Positions 20,000 to 25,777 of a DNA stretch of 28,965 nt are shown in pieces. The DNA is from a virus. The notes beneath the pieces are model-generated. The model was not told the origin of the DNA. It made no database searches and saw only the letters and a program-made list of their open reading frames with translations. Each line of letters begins with the position of its first letter. Position 1 is the stretch's first letter. The stretch is from positions 1 to 28,965 of IMG/VR virus record IMGVR_UViG_3300036861_000211. One strand, given 5' to 3'. The translations under genes and the position numbers were made by a program.

Positions 20000-20383
20000 G
20001 TGAGCTTTGACTTCTCGACCTGCATGGCTTGGGTTGGTGGGCTGTTTGAAGGTGAAGGCTCGTTCTCAGAACGTCGGAAGCCTTCGGGGTATTGCTCGCC
20101 TGCGGCCTCGATAAACCTTACCGATGTCGACACTCTGCTCCTGTTCGCGGAGCGGGTGCCCGTGGGACGCACCTATGGGCCTTACGAGCGACACAGTAGC
20201 GATGGGCGGGCGTGGCAGCCACAGTACGTCTGGCAGACCTCGGGATTCGAGGATACCCAGGCGTTCATAGCGATGGTCTGGCCCTGGCTGGGAGAACGCC
20301 GCCGGGCTCGAGCGCGGGAAGTGCTCGCTGCGGTCAGTCCGATGAACCGGATTCGACGCCGTGACCAGAACGGGGGGCGGTGA
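20000..20383 (+). CDS. LAGLIDADG-type homing endonuclease-like protein
   Basis: A 127-residue protein starting at GTG 20000, with AGGAGGAGAG just upstream. Residues 11-21 (WVGGLFEGEGS) match the LAGLIDADG helix, with E19 in place of the catalytic Asp, and are followed by a beta-strand region (SPAASINLTDVDTLL). One motif only, so it would act as a dimer. The sequence is short for a full enzyme (usually 150 or more), and the C-terminus is basic (RRARAREV, RIRRRDQNGGR). It sits between the tail and lysis genes, outside any intron visible here. Confidence 0.75.
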   Translation: MSFDFSTCMAWVGGLFEGEGSFSERRKPSGYCSPAASINLTDVDTLLLFAERVPVGRTYGPYERHSSDGRAWQPQYVWQTSGFEDTQAFIAMVWPWLGERRRARAREVLAAVSPMNRIRRRDQNGGR

Positions 20384-21290: not shown

Positions 21291-21529
21291 GTCATAACGG
21301 GAGACTCATCCGCTGGTTCAACCTCATCGCCGTACCGGTGATCGCCGCCGCGGCCATCTTGGGACCGACATGTGTGAGTGCGCAGGTCGAGGGTGATCTT
21401 CGAGAGATTTCGTGCCATGTCGCCCAGCAGAGCATCGAGGGCCTCAATGCACAACGTGCCGTCGCAGTCGAGCTCGGTATTCCGATTACGTTCGAGATCC
21501 CACCCCTTCCACCCGAGTGCCGACCATGA
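21287..21529 (+). CDS. Small exported protein
   Basis: An 80-residue protein starting at ATG 21287, overlapping the previous stop by 4 bp. Residues 5-31 form a signal peptide (basic GRLIR start, apolar FNLIAVPVIAAAAILG core, and a probable cut after VSA before QVEG). The mature part of about 50 residues has two cysteines (SCHVAQQ and PECRP) that may form a disulphide, a central helix and a proline-rich end (IPPLPPECRP). I recognise no family. It could be a spanin-like or periplasmic/cell-wall accessory; membrane or lysis function is inferred from its position only. Confidence 0.6.
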   Translation: MSHNGRLIRWFNLIAVPVIAAAAILGPTCVSAQVEGDLREISCHVAQQSIEGLNAQRAVAVELGIPITFEIPPLPPECRP

Positions 21530-21915
21530 AGCGAACCCTCATCCTTAGTTTGCTTCTGCTGTTCCTCGCCGCCCCTTCTCCAGCCGCCATGCACAGGACA
21601 TGCACGATTCTCGGTACAGGGGAGCGCGATGTGCTGAACGGTACGGAGGGGCCGGACAAGATCTGCGCTGGGCGGGGCGACGACTTCGCCAACGGTCGCG
21701 GGGGTAACGACGAGGTCCGCGGTGGTGGTGGGAAGGACACCATCGTCGGAGGTGATGGGCGCGACGTCCTCCGCGGTCGTTGGGGAGATGACCACCTATT
21801 CGGTGCCGATGATAACGGCGGTGACTTCCTCATCGGAGGTCATGGGTTCGACCGGTGCTTCGGCGACACGGGAGATCAATTCGATGGATCCTGTGAGATC
21901 CAGCTGGTCGAGTAG
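21526..21915 (+). CDS. Exported RTX-type beta-roll protein
   Basis: A 129-residue protein starting at ATG 21526, overlapping the previous stop by 4 bp; an upstream in-frame start at 21412 would lie inside the neighbour. Residues 1-22 are a signal peptide (KRTLILSLLLLFLAAPSPA). The rest holds about ten glycine- and aspartate-rich nonapeptide units (GGDGRDVLR, GRGGNDEVR, GRWGDDHLF and similar), the pattern of hemolysin-type calcium-binding repeats that fold into a parallel beta-roll when calcium is bound. Three cysteines occur. There is no C-terminal type I secretion signal, so it would leave by the Sec route. A phage-encoded RTX roll in a lysis region is unusual. Confidence 0.82.
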   Translation: MKRTLILSLLLLFLAAPSPAAMHRTCTILGTGERDVLNGTEGPDKICAGRGDDFANGRGGNDEVRGGGGKDTIVGGDGRDVLRGRWGDDHLFGADDNGGDFLIGGHGFDRCFGDTGDQFDGSCEIQLVE

Positions 21916-22342
21916 GACCCTCGTCGTTCTTCTTGTATTCACCCTCGTATTGAGTGCCACTTCGGCGAGCGCAGGCAAGCATGAGCGGCGACTGTTGCGA
22001 TGGACGAACCACGCTCGGATAGTCCGTGATCTGCAAACGGTCGAGATGAGCTGGAAGGCGTCACGCCTAGCCGAGCGACACAGTCGGCGTATGGCCGAGG
22101 CCGGCAGGATCTGGCATACCGCGCATCTTGCACGGAAGCTCGAGCGGGCCGGAATCTCCTTCGATGTCGCGGACGAGATCGTTGGTGCCGCTCTCGTTGG
22201 TCACCTCCGAGCGCTGTTTCGAGCCTTCATGGCCTCACCGGATCACCGCGCGGTGATCCTCGAACCGAGGTTCCGACGAGTCGGAATCGGCGTGGTACGG
22301 CGCGGTGGCTTCCTTTGGGTGACCTTGGTGTTCTACGGGTGA
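21884..22342 (+). CDS. Exported CAP (SCP/PR-1) domain protein
   Basis: A 152-residue protein. I take ATG 21884, with GGGAG (21870-21874) upstream; GTG 21893 is possible. It overlaps the RTX gene by 32 bp. Residues 1-35 form a signal peptide (LVVLLVFTLVLSATSASA). The mature part is a compact CAP domain: NHARIV at the start, helix with the conserved RLAERHSRRMAEAGRIWH run, then FMASPDHRAVILEPRFRRVGIG and a final strand GGFLWVTLVFYG. CAP proteins are secreted sandwiches of diverse function, including binding of lipids and cell walls. The usual EN(I/V) motif is here DEIVG, a possible loss of one metal ligand neighbour. Confidence 0.85.
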   Translation: MDPVRSSWSSRTLVVLLVFTLVLSATSASAGKHERRLLRWTNHARIVRDLQTVEMSWKASRLAERHSRRMAEAGRIWHTAHLARKLERAGISFDVADEIVGAALVGHLRALFRAFMASPDHRAVILEPRFRRVGIGVVRRGGFLWVTLVFYG

Positions 22343-23020: not shown

Positions 23021-23389
23021 TCAGTCCAGCGAGAGGCTTATGTCCCAGTCCTGCGCCTTCATCTCAGCGAGTGTGTACGTCGGCCCGTCGTGGGTGCCGA
23101 TCTTCATCTGGTAGAAGTCCCGTTCTGGTACGTCATCGATGGAGAACTCCGACGTGCAGGACTCCACCATCCCGGCGAATCCGAGCTCGCGGTCAACGAG
23201 GACCGTCGTCGCCGTGCCGATGACGTGGTTCTCATCGTCTCGGAGCGTGACATTGGCGTTCAAGATGTCATAACCATCCCCGCAGGCCGGCGCTTGCAGC
23301 GTGCCATGCAGTAGGTGGGTGGGTTCGGGCGCCGGAGGATCCGAGCCGCATGCGGCTAGAACGAGGATGGCCACGAGACTGCGCCTCAT
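23021..23389 (-). CDS. Lipoprotein encoded downstream of the integrase
   Basis: A 122-residue protein starting at ATG 23389, 10 bp after the integrase stop and on the same strand. The N-terminus is a lipoprotein signal (MRRSLVAILVLAAC; lipobox L-A-A-C with the lipidated Cys at 14), then a flexible GSDPPAPEPTH spacer. The mature domain has two more cysteines (APACGDGYDI and VESCTSEF), a strand-rich core (NANVTLRDDENHVIG) and a DVPERDFYQMKIG strand. I recall similar secreted domains from actinobacteria. Cotranscription with repressor and integrase suggests expression in the lysogen, as for superinfection-exclusion lipoproteins; the role is inferred. Confidence 0.78.
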   Translation of the reverse strand: MRRSLVAILVLAACGSDPPAPEPTHLLHGTLQAPACGDGYDILNANVTLRDDENHVIGTATTVLVDRELGFAGMVESCTSEFSIDDVPERDFYQMKIGTHDGPTYTLAEMKAQDWDISLSLD

Positions 23390-23399
23390 GGCCGGAACG

Positions 23400-24380
23400 C
23401 TACGTCGGGTCGTCCTTCGGCGCAAGCCCGCCGAACACGCTCACCGCCGCCTTCGTCGTTCGTCTCTGGCCAAGCGCCAGATAGCCGCTTGTGGTTTTCG
23501 CGGAACGGTGGCCGGCAAGTTCCCGCATCACGTGAACCGGCGTGTTTTCATCGGCGAGCATCGAGAGGAACGTTGCTCGGAGGGTGTGCGAGCGTTGCTT
23601 GCGTCCTGTCGGGAACCCGCAGTCCTGAGCTGCCTCTCGGACCCAATCGCCGAACGTGTTGGGCGCGATGGACCCCTTCCCTCGGTGACCCACGAGGCGT
23701 GGTAGGAGCCACTCACCGTCCGAGGTCTTCTCAAGTTCCCGCAGCGCTTCGGCAGCCCACCCGCCAATGTCGACCTTCCGATATCGCCTTCCCTTGCCGA
23801 AGACGGTGACGACCTCCCGGATCCAGTCGATGTCGTGAAGCCGGATGCGCACGAACTCCCCTCGACGTGTTCCGAGGGATAGACACGCGAGAATCGCCCA
23901 GGCCCGCCGTTCATCTCGCAGGGAAGCCGCGATGAGCAAGCGGGTGATCTCCTCCAGCTCGAACCGGACCATCGGGGAGGGCTCCCGGCGGCGCGGGGTG
24001 ATGTCCTCCGTCATGGGATTGAGGAGCAGGTATCCGCGCCGCGTTGCCCACTTGTAGAAGCTCGTCACCCCCTTGGCCCGGAGCACCTTGGCTGATGAGC
24101 GGTCACCGATCGAAGCGAGGTAGGATGCGATGTCGCCCTCGTTCACGTCGAGGACGTGGACCTCGAACTCTAGGTGCTCAAGGAGTCCCGAGAGCCCGAG
24201 CCAGTAGTAGTGCCGGGTTTGCTCGGCCAGATCGCGGGCACGGAGGGTCCGGTACCAGTCCCGCACGAGCGCGAGAGAATCCCCATCCTCCAAGTTGGCT
24301 CCACCGACCCACCCAGTTTCTGGTACGGGTGCGTCATGGCGCATCCTTCGAAAGGGTGGTGATGCCGTAGCCCCTCGCAC
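23400..24380 (-). CDS. int: Tyrosine recombinase (phage integrase)
   Basis: A 326-residue recombinase that would insert and excise the phage genome. GTG 24380 is favoured by AGGA eight bases upstream, which overlaps the repressor stop; ATG 24344 has no spaced SD. Residues 35-115 form the SAM-like core-binding domain (TLRARDLAEQTRHYYWLGLS). The catalytic domain contains R172 (LGTRRGEF), K196 (FGKGRRY), H265 and R268 (SHTLRAT), H291 (AGHRS) and the nucleophile Y300 (SGYLALG). No separate arm-binding domain is obvious in the first 30 residues. No att core could be identified in the window. Confidence 0.95.
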   Translation of the reverse strand: MRGATASPPFRRMRHDAPVPETGWVGGANLEDGDSLALVRDWYRTLRARDLAEQTRHYYWLGLSGLLEHLEFEVHVLDVNEGDIASYLASIGDRSSAKVLRAKGVTSFYKWATRRGYLLLNPMTEDITPRRREPSPMVRFELEEITRLLIAASLRDERRAWAILACLSLGTRRGEFVRIRLHDIDWIREVVTVFGKGRRYRKVDIGGWAAEALRELEKTSDGEWLLPRLVGHRGKGSIAPNTFGDWVREAAQDCGFPTGRKQRSHTLRATFLSMLADENTPVHVMRELAGHRSAKTTSGYLALGQRRTTKAAVSVFGGLAPKDDPT

Positions 24381-24390
24381 GGGCCGAGTC

Positions 24391-24708
24391 CTAGGCGAGG
24401 GCTAGGTCGAGCGTCTGCTCGGGGGTCGGACGATCGAGCCGACCGCGCTTCCTCCCCGTAGCGCGGTCGCTAGAGTACGGCAGCGGCCACCCAAACAAGA
24501 GGCACATGCGAGCGTAGAGGACGTGGCTCGGCTGGTTCCGGCCGCTCTCCCAATTGCGCACGTTCTTCTCTTGCGTTTCGAGGAGACGTGCGAACTTGGG
24601 GACCGACCAGCCGTGCTCTTTCCTCGCGGCGCGGATTGCCTGAGCCAGGGTTTGCGGTTCCGCTGATTCAGACCTAGTAGCCATATCCGGTACATCTTGA
24701 CCGCCCAC
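24391..24708 (-). CDS. Short XRE-family repressor (CI-like)
   Basis: A 105-residue DNA-binding protein, read leftward and diverging from the Cro-like gene. GTG 24708 is favoured because AAGG lies 6 bp upstream; ATG 24684 is possible. A helix-turn-helix domain spans residues 21-75 (ARKEHGWSVPKFARLLETQE, then NVRNWESGRNQPSH), a typical XRE arrangement. The C-terminal 30 residues are basic and Pro-rich (RKRGRLDRPTPEQTL). There is no S24 autocleavage domain, so induction would not follow the LexA/RecA route. The stop codon (24391-24393) is followed by the integrase start after 10 bp. Confidence 0.82.
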   Translation of the reverse strand: MGGQDVPDMATRSESAEPQTLAQAIRAARKEHGWSVPKFARLLETQEKNVRNWESGRNQPSHVLYARMCLLFGWPLPYSSDRATGRKRGRLDRPTPEQTLDLALA

Positions 24709-24788
24709 AGGCCACCTTGCAAGTCTTGCCGTGCTGTAGGTCCTTCAGGTGATTCCGCAGATTGGGCAACATCTCCTGGCGGAAAGAC

Positions 24789-24817
24789 TTGACCGTCCCT
24801 ACGGGGACGGCTATTGT
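24789..24817 (+). promoter_or_regulatory. Rightward early promoter (sigma70-type)
   Basis: TTGACC (24789-24794) and TATTGT (24812-24817) are separated by exactly 17 bp. The expected start point, 24824-24825, coincides with ATG 24825 of the Cro-like gene. That would make the transcript leaderless, consistent with the lack of an SD (the sequence before the ATG is a run of C). Confidence 0.8.
24793..24810. promoter_or_regulatory. Operator-like 18-bp inverted repeat in the promoter spacer
   Basis: CCGTCCC TACG GGGACGG is a perfect 7-bp dyad with a 4-nt centre that overlaps the end of the -35 box and fills most of the spacer. A protein bound here would block RNA polymerase. The repressor (24391-24708) or the Cro-like protein is the obvious ligand. 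A weaker dyad, CTGtAGGtCCTtCAG, lies at 24734-24748 nearer the repressor start. Confidence 0.72.
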
Positions 24818-24824
24818 CCCCCCC

Positions 24825-25025
24825 ATGCTGCGGATCAGAGAACTTCGCCTCGCCGCTGGCCTATCGCAATCGGAGCTCGCTCGAGCCTCCGGTCTGGCCG
24901 AGAAGACGATCCGGCGAGCCGAGAAGACGGGACGGGCTAGCGGTGCCACCCTCGCTCGTCTCGCTATCGGACTCGACTGTTCGGTCGGTCATCTCTTCAT
25001 CCCGAAGGAAGAGGTCGCTTCGTGA
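24825..25025 (+). CDS. Cro-like XRE regulator
   Basis: A 66-residue protein starting at ATG 24825, the predicted transcription start. The XRE helix-turn-helix covers residues 2-58 (RIRELRLAAGLSQSELARAS, then LAEKTIRRAEKTGRASG and the closing GLDCSVGHLFIP). It consists of the DNA-binding domain only, as in Cro-type proteins. Position facing a divergent repressor and an operator fits a lytic-switch regulator. The start at 24762 is open but would place the promoter inside the gene. Its stop overlaps the next GTG by 4 bp (GTGA). Confidence 0.85.
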   Translation: MLRIRELRLAAGLSQSELARASGLAEKTIRRAEKTGRASGATLARLAIGLDCSVGHLFIPKEEVAS

Positions 25026-25195: not shown

Positions 25196-25458
25196 TGGGA
25201 CGGTCACCCTTCGATCAGACAGGAGAGACCAACACCCCCTCTGCTGTCATCCCGTCCGGGGATGGCCGTCCCGCTACTTTCCGGTCAGTGTCGCCGCTTC
25301 CGACCGCGGCGTGTGATGCGGGACGGCATTGGAACTGCTCGGGACGTGTCGTGCGCGGATTCCTGCCGATGGCCGGACTGGGTCATATGGAGCCGTGCCC
25401 GTGTGTCTGTCACTCGGGGCTCTGCCCTCACTGCAACGGAACGGGTCGTTGTGGCTAA
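25192..25458 (+). CDS. Cysteine-rich protein with a DnaJ-like zinc motif
   Basis: An 88-residue protein from GTG 25192 or ATG 25195. The first half is Pro-, Ser- and Thr-rich and probably disordered. The second half is cysteine-rich: C41 and C49 (ACDAGRHWNCSG), then CPCVC around residues 69-73, and CPHCNGTGRC at the end, the CxxCxGxG knuckle seen in the DnaJ zinc domain. It may bind zinc, possibly with the preceding protein. It overlaps the LuxR-like gene by 8 bp, so the chain of coupled genes continues. Function unknown. Confidence 0.55.
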   Translation: MMGRSPFDQTGETNTPSAVIPSGDGRPATFRSVSPLPTAACDAGRHWNCSGRVVRGFLPMAGLGHMEPCPCVCHSGLCPHCNGTGRCG

Positions 25459-25777
25459 TCAGACTTCTGCGACCGCGCCGTCTTCGGGTGACCGTCTCGC
25501 TACTTCTAATTCGCTTCCCGTCGATCAGCTCGTGAAAGTCCTCACCCGTCACGGGCATTTCGTTGACAGCGCTCAGGGGATCAGAGACCTGACCGATCGG
25601 CAGCGGTTAGTGCTTCAGCTCATGGCTGACGGCCTGACTTCGCAGAGCATCGCCGAGATGCTCGACATCTCTTACGAAACAGTTCGCGTACATCGATACC
25701 GGATCCTCAAGAGGCTCGGGGTTCACTCCACCGGCCAGGCCGTCGCTGTGGCAATTCGCGGAGGAATCATCCCGTGA
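25451..25777 (+). CDS. LuxR/GerE-type helix-turn-helix regulator
   Basis: A 108-residue protein. I take GTG 25451, where the sequence becomes protein-like; the frame is open to 25262 but overlaps the cysteine-rich gene there. Residues 46-106 match the GerE domain: LTDRQRLVLQLMADGLTSQS, IAEMLDISYETVRVHRYRIL and KRLGVHSTGQAVAVAIRGG, with the turn between the two central helices. There is no receiver domain and the first 40 residues are likely disordered. It probably controls early or middle phage genes, or host genes, by DNA binding. The stop overlaps the next GTG (GTGA). Confidence 0.85.
   Translation: MANQTSATAPSSGDRLATSNSLPVDQLVKVLTRHGHFVDSAQGIRDLTDRQRLVLQLMADGLTSQSIAEMLDISYETVRVHRYRILKRLGVHSTGQAVAVAIRGGIIP

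Follow-up and report, generated by a model that had tools for sequence, protein, structure and literature searches.

Superinfection exclusion by lipoproteins has so far been characterised mostly in streptococcal and Gram-negative phages. Ltp of the Streptococcus phages TP-J34 and TP-778 consists of a serine-rich spacer followed by helix-turn-helix repeats (PMC3952083, PMC11480721), while Llp of phage T5 and Cor of phages T1 and phi80 carry an intramolecular disulphide (PMC9586334). Many exclusion proteins are anchored outside the membrane via a transmembrane helix or a lipid (PMC3952083). In actinobacteriophages, prophage-mediated defence genes lie near the integration and immunity cassette (PMC5559632, PMC6426606). 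Precedents in actinobacterial prophages are a membrane protein of Charlie, which excludes DNA injection, and CarolAnn gp43/44, which is co-expressed with the repressor (PMC6426606). Here a lipoprotein gene is described that directly follows the integrase gene in positions 1 to 28,965 of the virus record IMGVR_UViG_3300036861_000211 (IMG/VR); this whole stretch of 28,965 nucleotides is referred to as the window. The protein belongs to an uncatalogued domain family with members in cultured temperate Gordonia phages. By analogy with the systems mentioned above it may be a prophage-expressed surface lipoprotein acting as a superinfection-exclusion factor, a reading to which a probability of about 0.4 is assigned.

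The lipoprotein gene is genuine, and its codon usage is phage-like. Its frame was scored as coding by a codon log-odds model trained on the structural genes of the same phage, with +0.29 bits per codon and +35.9 in total (integrase, +0.25), while four of the five overlapping open reading frames in other frames were negative and the fifth was weakly positive. Its coordinates, strand and frame had been given correctly in the first-pass annotation, as a check of the sequence and its open reading frames confirmed. The precursor starts with MRRSLVAILVLAAC-GSDPPAPEP... and contains the LAAC lipobox which that annotation had called clear. A PROSITE-like lipoprotein pattern, requiring N-terminal basic residues, a hydrophobic stretch and [LVI][ASTVI][GAS]C, was run against 797 start codons of open reading frames of at least 60 amino acids in all six frames. 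As it matched this reading frame only, at both of its possible starts, the lipobox is not a chance occurrence, and by this feature the protein falls into the class of bacterial lipoproteins. Beyond Cys14 the mature part has exactly two cysteines, C36 and C78, both conserved across the family described below. The small disulphide-capable domain proposed earlier takes shape as a domain of about 95 amino acids in which these two residues could form the disulphide.

The first-pass annotation had also expected a family different from Ltp, and this was borne out by iterative searching. Pfam, NCBIfam and PADLOC gave no match to the lipoprotein over the cut-off or with a clear E-value, and matches to PHROG were weak and confined to the signal-peptide region. 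No close relative was found in single-protein scans of viral contigs with the lipoprotein or the integrase, and when cultured phages were searched with the lipoprotein by tblastn at an E-value of 10, only chance fragments turned up (mycobacteriophage gp64-type and photosystem D1 matches). A sub-threshold tblastn match to a Streptomyces plasmid protein (P0004), which in pairwise BLASTP reached 2e-8 over 80 residues, gave access to the family. Alignment with six further plasmid proteins revealed invariant positions, among them C36, C78, G39, V47-T48, V87-P88 and F92-Y93. In the resulting profile A2, which includes the window row, this row scored an E-value of 3e-29. Besides this profile similarity, the window protein has C36 and C78, cysteines kept in every row, together with the Y...[GH].[GD] segment, and partly keeps the GGYDDI and SHRG motifs.

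Patterns derived from the plasmid family retrieved 13 IMG/VR contigs with clear members (L092-L104). HK97-type capsid genes are present on five of these, portal genes on four and integrase genes on nine. On the contigs G038 and G039 the member lies on the same strand as, and directly upstream of, an HNH-terminase-portal module (functions partly read from translations). G039, a prophage contig of Streptomyces type, encodes another small lipoprotein (LTAAC) close behind the family member (L107:5826-6098, + strand). In the uncultured phage L104 the member is a LAAC lipoprotein directly after an excisionase-like helix-turn-helix gene and beside leftward tail-region genes, these functions being read from translations, and in L102/G043 it faces the end of the structural-gene array, like the window gene. 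The match to A2 in contig G003 was weak (12.9 bits) and was dismissed. No convincing homologue was present in any of 32 whole records of capsid-related phages, most of which are fragments, and two scans of genome contigs, with portal and capsid alignments, gave pattern matches but no relative. The family is a domain of about 95 residues with two conserved cysteines, predicted to form an all-beta sandwich and to be kept on the outer side of the membrane through a lipid anchor or a transmembrane helix.

A first structure prediction without an alignment was poor (predicted local distance difference test score, pLDDT, 48.9) and was dropped for an AlphaFold2 model computed from the alignment of 13 family sequences. 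This model is all-beta with eight strands and a pLDDT of 81.8, a confident prediction unlike the fold of Ltp. Its best match among viral structure models was the lipoprotein of Gordonia phage Nyceirae (A0A1C9EI20; E 3.4e-5). A profile search of the PDB gave chance matches only. Neighbours found with VIA-align near a Z-score of 8 (S-layer, transthyretin-like, CnaB and carbohydrate-binding modules) were taken to reflect a common arrangement rather than relationship, a Z-score of about 8 being background.

The Nyceirae protein, which begins MRISTAIAAATISAGLLVTSC..., was assigned to gp39 by length, lipobox and similarity. Profile comparison of the window family with it yielded a probability of 93% (E 2.6e-7) and brought both cysteines into alignment, compared with a maximum of 5.2% among 120 shuffled decoys. 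Gp35 of Dogfish, a phage of the same genus, is 35% identical to Nyceirae gp39 and occupies the same slot. Both are leftward lipoprotein genes next to repressor, integrase and excisionase or helix-turn-helix genes of temperate phages. At this position Phishy has gp39 (L115:3337-3681, - strand), annotated as hypothetical, which is a putative lipoprotein of 114 amino acids with a FATAC lipobox, several cysteines and an unrelated sequence. With a homologue in Dogfish and an unrelated lipoprotein at the same position in Phishy, the lipoprotein slot is kept while its content is exchanged. The homology search led to plasmids, prophage contigs and Gordonia phages. Contrary to what would have spoken against the initial proposal, homologues are not limited to chromosomal genes unconnected with prophages, as they occur in immunity cassettes of cultured temperate phages and on prophage contigs.

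In the window the lipoprotein gene is the last of a leftward array of helix-turn-helix regulator, integrase and lipoprotein genes (Table 1). It begins 10 base pairs past the integrase stop, on the same strand and downstream of the regulator gene, so that its position in the lysogeny module was recognised correctly. The gaps of 10 base pairs given by the first-pass annotation hold between integrase and lipoprotein; between regulator and integrase this distance requires a start of the integrase at GTG 24380, and with ATG 24344 it is 46 base pairs. A shared transcript of the three genes is plausible from this arrangement. No terminator-like site was found between the array genes on their strand, no sigma-70-like leftward promoter was found for the array in a promoter scan, and no clear Shine-Dalgarno sequence was found before the ATG of the lipoprotein gene. 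The integrase is 25-28% identical to integrases of Arthrobacter, Gordonia and Mycobacterium phages; together with the family and the base composition this is compatible with an actinobacterial host.

Table 1. Positions of the lipoprotein gene and of neighbouring features in the window
Feature	Position	Strand	Details
Lipoprotein gene	23021..23389	-	Precursor of 122 amino acids; ATG start 23389, alternative upstream start TTG 23425; coding statistics and family membership
Signal peptide M1-A13 and lipidated Cys14 (predicted)	23348..23389	-	Lipobox L11-A-A-C14 at 23359..23348
Mature lipoprotein	23021..23350	-	Short proline-rich linker, then beta-sandwich domain of about 95 amino acids with conserved C36 and C78; alignments and AlphaFold2 model
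Tyrosine integrase	23400..24344	-	PF00589 E 5.3e-18; phrog_1 E 4.4e-38; reading frame may start at GTG 24380
Helix-turn-helix regulator, candidate immunity repressor	24391..24708	-	PF13560 E 2.9e-6; phrog_2328 repressor E 3e-8
Divergent helix-turn-helix regulator (Cro-like or second regulator)	24825..25025	+	phrog_5823 E 1.8e-10
Palindrome CCGTCCC-TACG-GGGACGG, candidate operator	24793..24810		Situated between the two hexamers of the rightward promoter-like site at 24789..24817 (1 found, 0.3 expected)
Hairpin of 11 base pairs with UUCG loop (rightward reading), then UUUCUC	22984..23009		Fold -24.9 kcal/mol, z -2.3; absent from the list of the T-run terminator scan

Of the two regulators the leftward one is the candidate immunity repressor, a role that might also fall to the divergent one. 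Its C-terminus reads ...TLDLALA, and the repressors of Nyceirae, Dogfish and Phishy end in VTAA, VAAA and GLAA; endings of repressors that act as degradation tags are associated with integration-dependent immunity (PMC5559632). The -10 hexamer of the rightward promoter-like site in the intergenic region 24709-24825 ends seven bases before the ATG of the rightward regulator, making this a candidate for a nearly leaderless regulator mRNA. On the other side, the hairpin marks the boundary between the late and lysis genes and the lipoprotein gene, on which the rightward late genes (M15 peptidase endolysin, small membrane and holin-like proteins) converge. Neither a tRNA nor an Rfam family was found in the window, and no attP core could be named in it. 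Three further observations concern more distant genes, all on the + strand. Two exported-looking genes, with RTX calcium-binding repeats (PF00353) and a CAP domain (PF00188), follow the endolysin at 21412-22342, which is unusual in a phage lysis region. A protein of 127 amino acids that resembles part of a LAGLIDADG-type endonuclease (GLFEGEGSF) and has no match in Pfam at E 0.01 is encoded between the tail genes and the endolysin at 20000-20383, and a LuxR-type (GerE) helix-turn-helix regulator of 171 codons is found at 25262-25777 in the early rightward region.

For a role in superinfection exclusion three lines of argument can be brought together: defence genes of actinobacteriophages adjoin the cassette, exclusion proteins typically use transmembrane or lipid anchors, both of which occur in this family, and unrelated lipoproteins replace one another in the slot. 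A slot that is kept while its sequence is exchanged is typical of exclusion or defence genes. Established are the gene and its position, the lipobox, the family, the predicted fold and the relatives within immunity cassettes, while expression from the operon, surface location, the disulphide, the exclusion activity and its target are inferred. The lipoprotein would be made together with the helix-turn-helix regulator and the integrase from the leftward lysogeny transcript as an accessory "moron" gene. After export it would be lipidated on Cys14 and retained at the outside of the cytoplasmic membrane, with the beta-sandwich of about 95 residues, clamped by a C36-C78 disulphide, projecting toward the cell wall. 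There its most likely action would be to intercept the tail tip or the tape-measure protein of an incoming phage, or a membrane protein used by that phage, and thereby block DNA entry. Of the initial proposal of an exclusion or lysogenic-conversion factor, the lipoprotein nature, the position in the lysogeny module and the distinction from the Ltp family have stood, and exclusion itself is argued from position, topology and slot exchange. The wider proposal, that the family represents a novel class of exclusion factors acting at the cell surface and that immunity cassettes of actinobacteriophages hold a swappable "exclusion lipoprotein" slot, as in Nyceirae and Dogfish versus Phishy, is possible but tentative. 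If true, the slot would flag many candidate exclusion genes now annotated as hypothetical, and the tie to cultured Gordonia phages makes the idea testable in the laboratory.

Several findings weigh against exclusion. The Streptomyces prophage members lie upstream of terminase genes, outside the immunity cassette, and nothing connects the plasmid members with phage immunity; as both sit apart from immunity, the domain may serve some general purpose outside the cell. The beta-sandwich is a very common fold and came without an informative functional match. The profile match to Dogfish gp35 is weak when taken alone (32% probability), and the closest structural relatives of the phage are short fragments, which are uninformative on retention of the homologue.

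The best of the alternatives is lysogenic conversion without exclusion, in which an extracellular domain of actinobacteria, disseminated by plasmids and prophages, would give the host some function at its surface, for instance in binding ligands or polymers, in envelope stress or in signalling. On Streptomyces plasmids, both mobilizable and non-mobilizable ones, members stand beside unrelated genes, carbohydrate-binding modules and transthyretin-like domains are among the structural neighbours, and the window has further exported accessory genes in those for the RTX-repeat and CAP-domain proteins. These neighbours are, however, at background level for such structure searches, and a general surface function requires neither the repeated position in the lysogeny module of Nyceirae, Dogfish and the window nor the exchange in Phishy. 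This explanation is considered somewhat less likely than exclusion. The protein could also confer immunity to a toxin which a competing element or strain exports or delivers on contact. Carriage on plasmids and prophages would fit, and several putative immunity proteins of polymorphic toxins from Mycobacterium abscessus prophages are predicted lipoproteins (PMC8092301), but in the window no toxin gene adjoins, the neighbours being the integrase and small membrane (holin-like) genes, which makes this improbable. That the gene is decaying, or a passenger currently without a role, is just as doubtful: the window copy is the shortest member, has no strict GGYDDI, contains an extra residue in the FY...H.G motif and lacks a clear ribosome-binding site, but its codon usage is as strong as that of the integrase, both cysteines and the key hydrophobic pattern are retained, the lipobox is intact and the fold model is confident. 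Membership in the Rz1-like spanins for lysis, suggested by the adjoining endolysin and holin-like genes and by the signal-peptide region, which weakly matches P2_Rz1 of NCBIfam (E 0.065) and an Rz-like spanin of PHROG (E 0.083), was rejected as highly improbable, since neither match extends beyond signal peptide and linker, the beta-sandwich of the mature part is conserved and occurs away from lysis genes, and the gene, on the opposite strand and facing the lysis genes across a strong hairpin, lies outside the late transcript.

Taking superinfection exclusion as the preferred reading, the window lipoprotein can be set beside the known systems. Like Ltp it is encoded by a small lipoprotein gene in a lysogeny module beside the integrase, and its site of action would likewise be the outer surface of the cytoplasmic membrane. 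Ltp, in contrast, has two helix-turn-helix repeats after its serine-rich linker, whereas the window protein is predicted to be all-beta with a conserved cysteine pair. As the two gave no BLASTP alignment and a profile probability of 0.2%, in line with the earlier remark that the sequence is not like Ltp, membership in the Ltp family was rejected for lack of homology and a different fold; the best reading is that the window lipoprotein is analogous to Ltp, not homologous. Llp and Cor, likened here by description only, are small phage lipoproteins too, and their disulphide has a possible counterpart in the cysteine pair; they jam TonB-dependent receptors in the outer membrane of Gram-negative hosts, while the window family is known here from actinobacterial elements. 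The Charlie membrane protein, CarolAnn gp43/44 and Sbash gp30/31 share with the window gene the location near integrase and immunity genes, the window having a single lipoprotein in this place. The Streptomyces plasmid proteins (e.g. WP_329047097.1) have the same domain with the motifs C-x-G-x-G-G-Y-D-D-I and FY-x-V-E-V-S-H-R-G, but are anchored by an N-terminal transmembrane helix, their genes residing on plasmids or preceding the terminase genes of prophages. Nyceirae gp39 and Dogfish gp35 resemble the window protein as lipoprotein precursors with the same domain by profile and aligned cysteines, encoded leftward in the integrase-repressor region, with likeness in fold for Nyceirae; they differ in the very low sequence identity and in the location of their gene beyond a divergent helix-turn-helix or excisionase gene, where that of the window follows the integrase.
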